Position numbers and translations under genes: made by a program. This document shows, in pieces, positions 4,059 to 47,093 of a DNA stretch of 61,129 nucleotides. The stretch covers positions 1 through 61,129 of the forward strand of contig JAFPYS010000013.1 in the NCBI GenBank assembly GCA_017412085.1, read 5' to 3'. The notes under the pieces are model-generated. The model searched no databases, was not told the DNA's origin, and worked only from the letters and a program-made list of their open reading frames with translations. The stretch comes from Alphaproteobacteria bacterium (GTDB lineage: Bacteria > Pseudomonadota > Alphaproteobacteria > CAAHEQ01 > UBA3637). Each line of letters begins with the position of its first letter. Position 1 is the stretch's first letter.

Positions 4059-6467
4059 TTAATTTGCCACAAATTTGACCGCGGTTTGCTCCATCTCGAA
4101 GCATTCCACAATATCGCCCTCTTTAATATCATCAAATTTAGCCAATTTCACACCACACTCAAACGATTCCTTCACTTCGCGCACGTCGTCTTTCATACGC
4201 TTTAATTGTTCCAAATCGCCCGTGTAAATAACGGTATCATTGCGCAACAAGCGCACCTTGGCACCACGCTTAATCACGCCTTCTGTGACCATACAACCCG
4301 CAATCTTACCCACTTTGGAGATAGAAATCACTTGACGCACCTCGGCATAACCAATGATCTTTTCATGCTCTTCTGGTGTCAACATACCTTCAACAGCTTT
4401 CTTGATATCGTCGGCAACATCATAAATGATTGAGTAATAACGGATGTCCACACCATCGCGTTTGGCCGCACTTCTGGCGCCCTGATTTGCGCGCACATTG
4501 AAGCCTATAACAATCGCATTGCTGGCTCTGGCCAAAGCAATATCTGTTTCGTTAATACCACCCACCGCACTATGTACAATATTTACCTTGATTTCATCAT
4601 TTTTAATCTTGCTTAAAATACCAACCAAAGCCTCAACGGAGCCTTGTACATCCGCCTTAATCAAAACTGGCACTTCCTTCATTTGTCCTGCTTTAATCTG
4701 GGCCAACAAGCCTTCTGTGCCACCAATACGCTTCACATTTAATTGTTCTCGGGCTTTGCGTTGACGATAAGCCGAAATATCTCGTGCTGTTTGTTCGTCC
4801 TGCACCACAACAAAATCATCGCCAGCAGATGGCGTTCCATTTAAACCAATCACTTCCACTGGTTGAGCTGGTTCGGCAATTTCTAACACCTGGTTTTTGG
4901 CGTTAGACATAGAGCGCACACGCCCCCATTCTTGCCCCGTCACAAATAAATCACCAATATGTAATGTTCCTTTTTTCACCAAAATTGTCGCCACGGAACC
5001 GCGGCCTTTTTCCATGCGCGCTTCCACCACAACACCTTCAGCCGGACAATTTTTAGGTGCCTTTAAATCCAACATTTCTGCCTGTAATAAAATGGCTTCA
5101 ACCAATTTATCCAAATTTGTTTTCTGTTTGGCAGATACTTCTACTTCTAACACATCGCCGCCCATAGATTCAACAGCAACTTCGTGTTGCAACAAATCCA
5201 TACGCACCTTGTTTGGATTGGCGCCGGGCATATCGATTTTATTAATCGCAACAATAATTGGTACGCCGGCAGCTTTAGCATGATGAATTGCTTCAATTGT
5301 TTGAGGCATCACACTGTCGTTTGCGGCAACCACCAAAATCACAATATCCGTTACCTGAGCCCCACGTGCACGCATCGCGGTAAAAGCTTCGTGTCCCGGC
5401 GTGTCAATAAATGTAATCTTTTTACCACTTTCTAAAACAACCTGATACGCACCAATATGTTGAGTAATACCGCCTGATTCTTTTGCGGCAACATTGGTGG
5501 AACGCAATGCATCCAATAACGATGTTTTACCATGGTCCACGTGTCCCATCACGGTTACAACCGGTGGACGCGGTTCAAATTCGGATTCAGGAATCTCTTC
5601 ATGCTTCAACACATTTTCAACATCTGATTCGGCCACACGTTGTTTCACGCGGTGCCCCATCTCGGTCACAACCAACTCGGCTGTATCTGCGTCAATCGTC
5701 TGGGTAATGGTCACCATCATGCCCATTTTCATCAATGTTTTCACAACGTCAGCCCCTTTTTCAGCCATACGAGAAGCCAATTCCTGCACCGTAATTGTTT
5801 CAGGAATAATCACATCATGAATCACCTTTTCGGCCGGTCCTTTTTGAGCATTTAAGAATTTTTGATATTGTTTTTCGCGCGCCCGTTTGATGGAAGCCAA
5901 AGAACGTCTGTGATGATGCGGACCAGTTTCATCGTCAGAATCCTCATCATCGCCGGCGGAATATTGCTTGTACGCATTTAAATTCATTTTATTGGCACGT
6001 TTTTCTTCAAAAGACCCCTTGCCCTTATTCATGGCTTGTTCAAGTTCTTTTTGCTTTTTGGCCGCCAAAATTTCATCTAAATCTTTTTTCTTTGTTTCAG
6101 AGAAATTCCGCTGTGTTTTTTCGGAAACAGCCACGCTGGCTTCTAATGCCTGTTGCTCTATTTCGGCCTGACGCTTAGCTTCCTCGGCCACACGACGCTC
6201 TTGTTCTTGACGTGCTTTTTCTGCTTGAGCTTGGCGTTCTGCCTCTAATTGTTTGGCATGTTCGGCCACACGTTGTGCCTCTTGGAGCAATTTCAATTTC
6301 TGAGCCGCATCTTGGGTCATCGACACCGGTTTTTGTTCCGGCGTAATAATACGCCGTTGCTTGCGCACCTCAACTTGAACGCCTGTTCGGGCGCCCAAAT
6401 TAGGACGCAAAGTGCCGCCTAAAGATAACGTTTTTCCAGATAGTGTTAATTTCTTTTCTTCACTCAT
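4059..6467 (-). CDS. infB: Translation initiation factor IF-2
   Basis: GTPase that places initiator fMet-tRNA on the 30S subunit. Of the 802 residues, the N-terminal 200 or so are low-complexity and charged, rich in Glu, Lys and Ala. The G domain has G1 GHVDHGKTS (308-316), G3 DTPGHE (355-360) and G4 NKID (409-412), followed by the IF-2 beta-barrel and C-terminal initiator-tRNA-binding domains ending near EQTAVKF. The ATG follows AAAGGAG. It stands between nusA and rbfA; the small ylxR gene often found between nusA and infB is absent. Confidence 0.98.
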
Positions 6468-8566: not shown

Positions 8567-8595
8567 ATTATAGCAAAAAAAAATAATCTTGTCAA
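8567..8595 (-). promoter_or_regulatory. Consensus sigma-70 promoter of the rimP-nusA-infB cluster
   Basis: TTGACA (8595-8590), a 17-base spacer, TATAAT (8572-8567) on the minus strand: all twelve bases match consensus. It stands back to back with the promoter of the divergent Cys-rich gene; the two -35 boxes are 9 bases apart. Confidence 0.9.
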
Positions 8596-8604
8596 TAGTT
8601 TTTC

Positions 8605-8634
8605 TTGACAACATTAAACCAAGTAAAATAATAT
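8605..8634 (+). promoter_or_regulatory. Promoter of the 913-residue Cys-rich gene
   Basis: TTGACA (8605-8610), an 18-base spacer, TAATAT (8629-8634), followed by AGGAGA at 8644-8649 and ATG at 8659. The -35 is perfect; the -10 is weaker (4 of 6). Confidence 0.65.
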
Positions 8635-8658
8635 AGAACACATAGGAGACGTATACGC

Positions 8659-11400
8659 ATGTTAAAAATTAAGCAAAGCCCCCCCCCATCACAAAATAAT
8701 CGTTTAATTTCAAATGGTTATTCTGAGTCTGGCCGGACAATGCTTGAAACTCTTGGGGTGATTATCATCCTGATTGTTCTCACGATTGGTGGTATTAAGG
8801 GCTTTGGTTGGATGCGTGCAAATGCCGTTGCAAACAACCTGTTGGATCAAGTAATGGATATGGCCGTTTCTCGTCAAAACGAGTTATTGGGACGAAATTG
8901 GCGGCGACCAGAAGAAAACGATAAATATACCAAAGACGGTGTTCACGGCATCTCTGTTTCCGTTGAAAACGGCATTTCGGGAAACTTAAAAGATGTCTTT
9001 TGGGTAACGTTAGGCACTTCCGATTTTGGTGTGGACAAAAAGGTGTGCGAAACATTGCTTGAAAAGAAAGAGCAGCTTCAAAACACCAAATTACCGCTGC
9101 TGGCCATTACTGTCGGAAGTGTTCTGGTTACAAATGGAACACCCGAATGCCATGATCAAAATATCATCAACTTTATTTTTCCAAAAAATGCCCAAAAGAA
9201 TGGCGGTACCCCAAATATTATCATTAATCCGGTTATTGGGCCTGAGGACGAGCCACAGAATTGCGATGCAAGATTGTGTCCTGTGGGTGCAGAATGTAGT
9301 GGCAGCAAAATTACCTGTTTGCCAGGATATAAAATGGTACATGACGACAACTGTTCTTTGATTAACTGTGTCGCCTGCACGAATAACACCTATAATACCT
9401 CCCGCGACACAACAAACAGCGAATGTACGGAATGTCCAGATGGACAAATTACCACGGATCATCGTTCTTGTCATTGCGCTGCCGATGGCACTGCTTGTTC
9501 GGTTGGCGGATTCAGCGGTTATGTGGAAGATTGCCGCTGTGTTCAATGCACCAAGGACAGCCATTGTCATGGAAAATGTGAAGTGTGTCGCGGCGGTCTC
9601 TGTCAAGAATTGCCGGATGGATCGCACTGTTCAGATTGCACCTTCCCGACCCCATGTTGGAATGATCAATTGCAACAGTGCATTGTGTGTGATGGATCTT
9701 GCCTGAAAGACGCCGATTGCGATAACAACAAAACCTGCAATAAAAACACGCATTTATGTGAAGATACGCCAATTCCACCATGCGTTACCGATAATGACTG
9801 CAATACCTGCGAGGTATGTTCAGATGGTACTTGCGTGTCTGAACCAGATTGTACCCCGTGCACCGATAACACATCGTGTCCCGCCGGTCAAACCTGCGAC
9901 ACCACCAACAACAAATGCATTGATAATCCCCAATGCGGAGAAAACGCCACTTTGGTCGGAAATACTTGTCAATGTAACGCCGGCTATTACGGTGATGGAC
10001 AAACATGTACACAATGTACGGTCCCGTTAACCAGCGATGTTGGCGCAACAACGGCCAATGATTGTTATTGTCCGATGGGGTATTATTTACCACAAAAAAA
10101 CAATACAACAGACTGCTTCGAATGTCCCAATGGAAGCACTAGTGACACAAAAAATGCGACTATTTGTACTTGTACTATACCAAACTCACATTGGACAATT
10201 TATGATGAAGATTATGGAACTTGGGGTGACTGCAGATGTAATGCGGGATATTGGGGCAATCTTGACCTTACAGACGGAAGTTGTACCGCATGCCCACAGA
10301 ATATGACCAGCGATATCGAAAATAACTTTTCAGAAAACCAATGTTACTGCTTACCAAATTTTGTTGTTATACAGGGTAGCTGTGCCTTATGCCCTACAGA
10401 TAGTACATTAGTATACATTGAAAATGCGCGGTACTGCAACTGTACTGCCCCCGAAAAGATGTGGAACTATGCCACAAACCAATGCGAAACGGTGTGTGAT
10501 ATAAATGCAACCGTTTTGGATAAATTCATATTGCATCCACAATACGCCGCATGTGTATGTAACAATGGTTACTATGGAGATGGAAAAATTTCCGGAACTG
10601 GCTGCACATCATGCGGTGAAGGCGATGGATGGACAACTTTAGGAGGACGTTGTTTCTGCGATTATACCACACATTACACAAATACGGCGCTATCCGAATG
10701 TTGGTCATGTCCCGCAAACAGCACTCTAACTCGTACTAGTAACTCCGATGTTTATAATTCTTGTGCTTGCACTGAAAGTGAAAAAGTCTGGATCAGACAA
10801 ACTAATACTTGTGAATCCTGCCCCTCAGGAATAAAATCAATTCTGTTAGACGACGGAACATACACTTGCGTTTCTTTGACAGAACTTAATATTGATCAAA
10901 CGCATACCTATTGGATTGCCTCTGGATTGGGCGATAAAAGTGGGTTTACTTATAACGAAGCAGAGCGCATCTGTTCAGCCTATCAAAAAACTTTATTTGA
11001 CCCTCTATGCCATCCTGCCGCAAGTGCAGAACATTCGCCCGAAGGAGAACCATCAGTAATTAATAACAGTTATTATAAAATAACAAACGCTTATTATTGT
11101 AATACAAACTATTTTTGTACGCCCGCCCCATATTCGTGTTATGGAGAAACAATTGATTCAAGCTGTCATCAAAACCAATTAGTCGCTTCTTCGTGGATTG
11201 CAGGGATCCCTGAAGGCTTTTGGTGGGTCAAGACAACTTCAAGCACCGCCTGCAGTAGCAACAAAGCTTTTTATGTATATCCGATAGATGCTAGTTTTCT
11301 TAACGCGGGAGATATAGAAGTAAGTTTTGGGGGATACGCCTTTCACGTCAACAGTGGTCCAAAAAGTTCTGACATGCGTGTACTTTGTAAAAATTATTAA
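8659..11400 (+). CDS. Large Cys-rich protein with prepilin-like N-terminus (possibly phase-variable)
   Basis: I recognise the N-terminal signal, not a named family. The 913 residues begin with a short leader ending SG25, then RTMLE with Glu at +5 and a hydrophobic helix to about residue 50, as in type IV prepilins cut after Gly. Residues 50-175 form a soluble head shared with the protein at 53555. A long region of EGF-like or growth-factor-receptor-like Cys pairs (for example CxCNAGYYGDGQTCTQC) runs to about residue 745. I count about 84 Cys in all. The last 160 residues have few Cys and end MRVLCKNY, reminiscent of lectin-like or FGE-like C-termini. The start is fixed by AGGAGA. Codons 7-10 hold nine consecutive C (8679-8687), a possible slippage site. 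It is probably exported, anchored by the N-terminal helix, and perhaps an adhesin; function is unproven. Confidence 0.85.
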   Translation: MLKIKQSPPPSQNNRLISNGYSESGRTMLETLGVIIILIVLTIGGIKGFGWMRANAVANNLLDQVMDMAVSRQNELLGRNWRRPEENDKYTKDGVHGISVSVENGISGNLKDVFWVTLGTSDFGVDKKVCETLLEKKEQLQNTKLPLLAITVGSVLVTNGTPECHDQNIINFIFPKNAQKNGGTPNIIINPVIGPEDEPQNCDARLCPVGAECSGSKITCLPGYKMVHDDNCSLINCVACTNNTYNTSRDTTNSECTECPDGQITTDHRSCHCAADGTACSVGGFSGYVEDCRCVQCTKDSHCHGKCEVCRGGLCQELPDGSHCSDCTFPTPCWNDQLQQCIVCDGSCLKDADCDNNKTCNKNTHLCEDTPIPPCVTDNDCNTCEVCSDGTCVSEPDCTPCTDNTSCPAGQTCDTTNNKCIDNPQCGENATLVGNTCQCNAGYYGDGQTCTQCTVPLTSDVGATTANDCYCPMGYYLPQKNNTTDCFECPNGSTSDTKNATICTCTIPNSHWTIYDEDYGTWGDCRCNAGYWGNLDLTDGSCTACPQNMTSDIENNFSENQCYCLPNFVVIQGSCALCPTDSTLVYIENARYCNCTAPEKMWNYATNQCETVCDINATVLDKFILHPQYAACVCNNGYYGDGKISGTGCTSCGEGDGWTTLGGRCFCDYTTHYTNTALSECWSCPANSTLTRTSNSDVYNSCACTESEKVWIRQTNTCESCPSGIKSILLDDGTYTCVSLTELNIDQTHTYWIASGLGDKSGFTYNEAERICSAYQKTLFDPLCHPAASAEHSPEGEPSVINNSYYKITNAYYCNTNYFCTPAPYSCYGETIDSSCHQNQLVASSWIAGIPEGFWWVKTTSSTACSSNKAFYVYPIDASFLNAGDIEVSFGGYAFHVNSGPKSSDMRVLCKNY
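8679..8687 (+). repeat. C9 homopolymer inside codons 7-10
   Basis: Nine C in a row, encoding part of Ser-Pro-Pro-Pro, lie 20 bases after the start codon. No other C or G run of this length was seen in the window. One-base slippage would shift the frame before the export signal. Confidence 0.9.
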
Positions 11401-46709: not shown

Positions 46710-47093
46710 ATGACAAATAATGAATCCGGCCGTTCAATGGTTGAAATGTTGGGCGTGTTAGCCATTATCGGCGTGTTATCCGTTGGTGGTATCGCTGGTT
46801 ACACAATGGCTATGAACAAACATAAAGCCAATAACTTGGTAGATTGTATTGCTAAAATGTCCATCGCCGCTCAAGTGAGCACAACAGCTACAGCTCCCAC
46901 ACAAACTGATTATTGTGCTGTCACAGACGTTGGAAACTGGGATATTACAGCAACCGCCACAACAGGAGCGATATCTCTAACTGCTGGAACAAACGCCTCA
47001 GCGGCCGCTTGTAAGGCAGCGAAAGATGCCATGGGTAACAAAGTTGGAAGCAATGGTCCAACCATTACATGGCCAACAACTGGTTGCTCGTAA
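46710..47093 (+). CDS. Small type IV pilin-like protein
   Basis: The 127 residues start MTNNESG, then RSMVEMLG, with the cut expected after Gly7 and Glu at +5 (E12). A hydrophobic helix (VLAIIGVLSVGGIAGYTMAM) follows, then a small Thr/Ala-rich globular part with four Cys (NNLVDCIAK, DYCAVTD, AACKAAK, TTGCS). The last two or three resemble a D-region disulphide loop of pilins. Position +1 is Arg rather than Phe. GAAAGGA precedes the ATG; a strong promoter and terminator make it a single unit. It may be the major pilin of a system whose other parts are elsewhere; no prepilin peptidase, PilB or PilC is in the window. Confidence 0.85.
   Translation: MTNNESGRSMVEMLGVLAIIGVLSVGGIAGYTMAMNKHKANNLVDCIAKMSIAAQVSTTATAPTQTDYCAVTDVGNWDITATATTGAISLTAGTNASAAACKAAKDAMGNKVGSNGPTITWPTTGCS

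Follow-up and report, generated by a model that had tools for sequence, protein, structure and literature searches.

The run of nine C at positions 8679–8687 of the window (the whole stretch of DNA that was analysed, 61,129 bp) is very likely a contingency, or phase-variation, switch of a gene for a prepilin-like adhesin. Comparison with related genomes points to on/off switching as the most likely function of the tract, since many such runs are found in surface genes of the relatives, and the majority have a length that disrupts the frame of a gene intact in every other respect. The features around the tract are the following.

8605–8634, forward strand: promoter-like site, TTGACA (8605–8610) followed by AATAAT (8627–8632) or TAATAT (8629–8634), with spacers of 16 and 18 nt, respectively; a consensus match only
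8644–8648, forward strand: Shine–Dalgarno-like AGGAG
8659–11400, forward strand: gene (P0001) for a 913-residue prepilin-like, putative surface protein with a leader, an N-terminal hydrophobic segment, a Cys-rich body and a C-terminal part
8659–8733, forward strand: predicted 25-residue prepilin leader MLKIKQSPPPSQNNRLISNGYSESG, with cleavage expected after G25 and E at +5, according to the prepilin leader rule
8663–8727, forward strand: recurrent core element (model R1), TAAGCAA-N2-Cn-N6-AAATWATCSTTATTTWTCAA, which occurs in the genus in both orientations
8679–8687, forward strand: C9 tract, putative slipped-strand switch, nine being an in-frame (ON) length
8734–8811, forward strand: N-terminal hydrophobic pilin helix RTMLETLGVIIILIVLTIGGIKGFGW

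The initial annotation described nine consecutive C at codons 7–10, twenty bases from the start, and direct reading of the sequence bears this out: the first C is 20 nt past the A of the ATG at 8659, and the tract begins at the last base of codon 7 (AGC) and ends with the first two bases of codon 10 (CCA). It encodes S-P-P-P within the predicted 25-residue leader, which agrees with the claim that Pro-Pro-Pro lies in the part that is cleaved off. The description of the genome as rather AT-rich is right in direction and overstated in degree, the window having about 42% G+C. The tract is the only run of C or G longer than six in the window. Dinucleotide-preserving shuffles give an expectation of 0.27 C9 or G9 per window, with at least one in 16 of 100 shuffles, so that the C9, taken on its own, is mildly unusual and is weak evidence of a switch. 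Four tracts of nine or more C occur in the whole genome (967 kb). A C10 on contig 16 (L002:5640–5649, G000:C16) lies between two small ORFs, beside phage portal-like genes; the idea that it is a frameshift which splits one gene was dropped, since in all congeners the downstream ORF is a gene of its own, with about 137–140 aa.

The effect of tract length on the window gene can be predicted by simple frame arithmetic. The frame of P0001 is open with C9 and C12, while with C7, C8, C10 or C11 it ends after 12–15 codons, before the export signal, as was anticipated for the gain or loss of a single C. The coding frame of the window gene has no ATG, GTG or TTG from the tract to the cleavage site, hence the OFF lengths would yield no exportable protein. 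We propose that slipped-strand mispairing during replication changes the number of C: with 9 (or 6, or 12) of them, the ATG and the prepilin leader would share one frame, the protein would be exported and processed and the gene would be ON, and with other lengths translation would stop after 12–15 codons and the gene would be OFF. The tract is thus a simple repeat whose length is predicted to alter expression. A role of the tract on the minus strand, for rimP, was also considered and was dropped because rimP has its own consensus promoter, located between the tract and the gene.

Prepilin-type leaders have a Gly before the cleavage site and a Glu at position +5. The predicted N-terminus of P0001 consists of MLKIKQSPPPSQNNRLISNGYSESG, which ends in SESG, the cleavage site, and RTMLETLGVIIILIVLTIGG, which begins with RTMLETLGV; it combines the leader-final G, the xxxxE motif and the hydrophobic stretch of a type IV prepilin. 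The same genome encodes a prepilin peptidase (PF01478, E 3.3e-19) and, in three places, homologues of T2SSE-type secretion ATPases (PF00437), which provides the peptidase and the assembly ATPase expected beside a type IV prepilin. Further prepilin-like starts are present in the window at 46728 and 53591. The Pfam N_methyl model was not reported for P0001 and was below the cut-off for a shorter homologue in the window, and the body of P0001 gives weak EGF_3 and Cys-repeat matches, also below the cut-off. A protein search of the genome contigs with P0001 returned no relatives, nor did a sequence search of the PDB, and AlphaFold, run without an alignment on the C-terminal 180 residues, gave a pLDDT of 30 and no usable structure. 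We note that this C-terminal part (10858–11397 of the window, ending in ...MRVLCKNY) has spaced Cys and Trp residues reminiscent of C-type lectin-like domains, a likeness that no search supports.

The evidence for switching comes mainly from relatives. Runs of C9–C15 are found at the same leader position in 17 prepilin leaders of three genera of the family, counting only the leaders that have both an RBS and an ATG. Four of these 17 are in frame (the window C9, C12 and C13 in G025, and C12 in G031) and 13 are out of frame; about one third would be expected in frame under free slippage, and all of them under ordinary coding. The lengths are compared among paralogues and between species, with one genome per species, rather than between alleles of one locus, and related loci thus differ in repeat length and in predicted state, ON or OFF. 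Among the out-of-frame copies from the same genus, none has a start codon for the productive frame on the 5' side of the tract. The open frames behind out-of-frame tracts extend over 366, 378 and 411 codons to natural stops, and dN/dS is 0.10–0.52 for pairs of out-of-frame copies, where one pair comprises 47 codons only and others have near-saturated dS. Because of these long open frames and dN/dS values, the out-of-frame copies appear to be under purifying selection and do not look like decaying pseudogenes. The claim of a phase-variation switch is therefore supported by the comparison of sequences: homologous leader tracts vary in length, and most are out of frame in ORFs that are otherwise intact and constrained.

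In 43 genomes of the family, C8 followed within 25–55 nt by a prepilin motif occurs at eight distinct sites, and the reversed pattern at none. The C9 version of this pattern matches only three uncultured alphaproteobacterial assemblies among 84,980 species genomes, which is an underestimate, since the pattern is strict and misses the window gene itself. The initial annotation had taken interruption of the tract in relatives, together with a uniform tract in reads, as an argument against switching. Some copies in G006 (C5, in a truncated copy, and C7) and G007 are indeed short or interrupted, and the nearest orthologues of P0001, in G010 and G004 (38% identity), are devoid of the tract, whereas in most leader copies it is uninterrupted.

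The leaders show other peculiarities. In G010, three loci (L085, L087 and L090) have a nearly identical leader after the tract and downstream proteins that are only 38–56% identical, so this leader behaves like a shared cassette. At L040 (G010:C9) and L083 (G005:C24), sequences resembling palindromic repeats (CHSGLDPES...MLNQVQHD and CHPCESGD) have been inserted into a prepilin leader or immediately behind it. In G030, a C-tract near the start of a gene for a protein with a Sec-type signal (MFILSKFTPPPPTLNNLFKYLILLSITTLPAHA), which is not a prepilin (L178, G030:C11, about 4395–4410) is in frame in the assembly. In the same assembly, which belongs to another genus, a G15 comes right after a TTGACA and before a possible -10 box, upstream of a prepilin-like motif (L173, G030:C28, about 8570–8600); this arrangement looks like promoter-spacer phase variation.

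The C-tract appears to be part of a small recurrent element. About 42 tracts of nine or more C are present in congeneric genomes, and about half of them share flanks with the window tract; strong matches to the R1 model of this core are confined to the genus, and the matches in other genera of the family are weaker. The flanks of the window tract match those of four G-tract copies at 33–40 of 56 positions, which is reached in 0 of 20,000 shuffles, whereas unrelated C9 tracts match at no more than 22 of 56 positions, most of them at chance level. One copy, G009C3, matches R1 and yet agrees with the window flanks at only 21 of 56 positions, no better than chance in this ungapped comparison. The same C-tract layout in other prepilin leaders would result in a set of independently switched surface proteins.

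The genomes compared are fragmented draft assemblies, those that are named being derived from metagenomes, and the lengths C9–C15 may be off by one. Of 18 leader tracts, nine are no more than 300 bp from a contig end, against an expectation of 0.95, which indicates that assembly is difficult at these tracts; the excess may be due to repeats, to length heterogeneity or to both. Since these are draft assemblies with tracts close to contig ends, and since the finished reference of Bifidobacterium breve differed in tract length from the population (PMC9187656), individual ON and OFF calls are provisional, and the argument is carried by the pattern over many loci.

It may be that the C-tract is simply carried along by a dispersed element and is not selected for switching, the out-of-frame copies being broken or misassembled. 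The core common to about half of the C-tracts of the genus, the palindromic repeats in some leaders and the excess of tracts at contig ends are in line with this idea, which we nevertheless regard as unlikely, considering that long intact ORFs under apparent purifying selection lie behind out-of-frame tracts and that the tract sits at the very point at which a frameshift prevents export.

Long homopolymers can cause slippage by RNA polymerase and by the ribosome. Slippage at either step on the C-run could produce mixed frames at all lengths, and hence a low level of expression with no on/off state, which would also accommodate the many copies at non-productive lengths. The shift needed to restore the frame is not the same in all copies (-1, +1 or none), so that no fixed programmed shift fits, and this explanation is quite improbable.

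That the tract merely encodes Pro-Pro-Pro in a dispensable leader is harder still to accept: the window copy is in frame, 0.27 C9 are expected per window, the leader is free to drift (the nearest orthologues have no tract) and valS of a congener has an in-frame C9, hence not every C9 is a switch, but 13 of 17 homologous leaders are out of frame and the spacing from C-tract to prepilin motif is strongly non-random. We thus retain phase variation of the prepilin-like gene as the preferred explanation of the window tract.

The reverse-orientation copies of the core are organized differently. They are intergenic and mostly 100–125 bp upstream of a gene, and their G-run is on the sense strand; the genes downstream encode prepilins, MORN-repeat-like proteins and Cys-rich proteins that have signal peptides. 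In the best-conserved copies, the ATG of a short ORF (MK.YV......YQ.K.LINKDNF..) comes no more than about 8 nt after a -10 box (TATACT), and this ORF continues into the G-run. The leader ORF of the reverse copies is under weak codon-level constraint only. Nearly all copies have a hairpin and a run of at least six T just before the gene, while in the window a terminator-like site is found close to the gene start in one case out of 43. One tract phase in three takes the leader ORF into this terminator-like hairpin; in the other two, the ORF usually stops a few codons past the G-run (+7 to +34, with one exception at +53). The long phase is found in one of the uninterrupted copies (G009 C6, n = 8) and in two of the interrupted copies, both in G010; one copy in G005 is open through the hairpin, its start being masked by N.

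In Streptococcus gallolyticus pil1 and pil3, GCAGA pentanucleotide repeats in a leader ORF before an intrinsic terminator bring about an attenuation-like phase variation (PMC3894217). The reverse copies, and not the window tract, have the pil1-type layout (a repeat in the leader ORF, a terminator before the gene and one phase that reaches the hairpin), and because this layout matches the mechanism shown for pil1, our analysis favors reading them as pil1-like attenuation switches: the reversed element, whose G-tract lies in a leader ORF and is followed by a terminator, probably controls other accessory genes in this way. The genome under study has two reverse copies, G000:C3:969–1170 (L001) and G000:C17:1879–2080 (L003), with G9 and G11, each with promoter, leader ORF and terminator; they are located upstream of a gene for a 198-aa prepilin and of a gene for a 692-aa MORN-like protein, respectively, and both are in the short (OFF-type) phase.

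We consider it possible, at somewhat less than an even chance, that the portable homopolymer element of about 65 bp is a phase-variation cassette, used in both orientations within one genus, whose C-run in prepilin leaders would act as a translational on/off switch and whose inverted G-run, in a leader ORF before a terminator, would act by transcriptional attenuation, so that a set of surface genes would switch independently.

The pilC tract of Neisseria is located in the signal-peptide region. In pilC1 and pilC2, a C/G tract of 9–20 is part of the coding sequence of a gene associated with type IV pili, and its length sets the on or off state (PMC5953494). The window gene also has a homopolymeric tract within the reading frame of a pilus-related gene; it differs in that PilC, which is not itself a pilin, carries a Sec signal, while the window tract falls within the short prepilin leader of a pilin-like protein, and in that multi-gene families of unrelated, uncultured Alphaproteobacteria are concerned. 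In B. breve, a gut commensal, a G-tract splits the first gene of a sortase pilus and sets the secretion signal apart from the rest, and the length of this tract is heterogeneous (PMC9187656). In both cases a homopolymer tract lies in a pilin or pilin-like gene, but the pili of B. breve are Gram-positive sortase pili, its tract is downstream of the signal and there is no shared element with two orientations. As for S. gallolyticus, the likeness concerns the reverse copies only, in which a repeat in a leader ORF precedes a terminator and an accessory gene and the frame decides whether translation reaches the hairpin; pil1 has GCAGA repeats and an ordinary RBS, whereas here there is a mononucleotide G-run, with the start codon right after the -10 box in the best-conserved copies, and the reverse copies number about a dozen, spread over several genomes of the genus.

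The mechanisms themselves are therefore known from Neisseria pilC, Bifidobacterium pili and S. gallolyticus pil1, while their use in prepilin genes, the group of hosts and the core shared in two orientations appear to be new; a literature search, with most subscription journals outside its range, did not turn up such switches in this group of bacteria. The results suggest that, in these uncultured Alphaproteobacteria, a phase-variation system with multiple loci acts on prepilin-like surface proteins, and its predictions can be checked without culture in existing metagenome reads. If one family of elements does serve in both roles, coding switch and attenuator, it would show how contingency loci can spread between genes.
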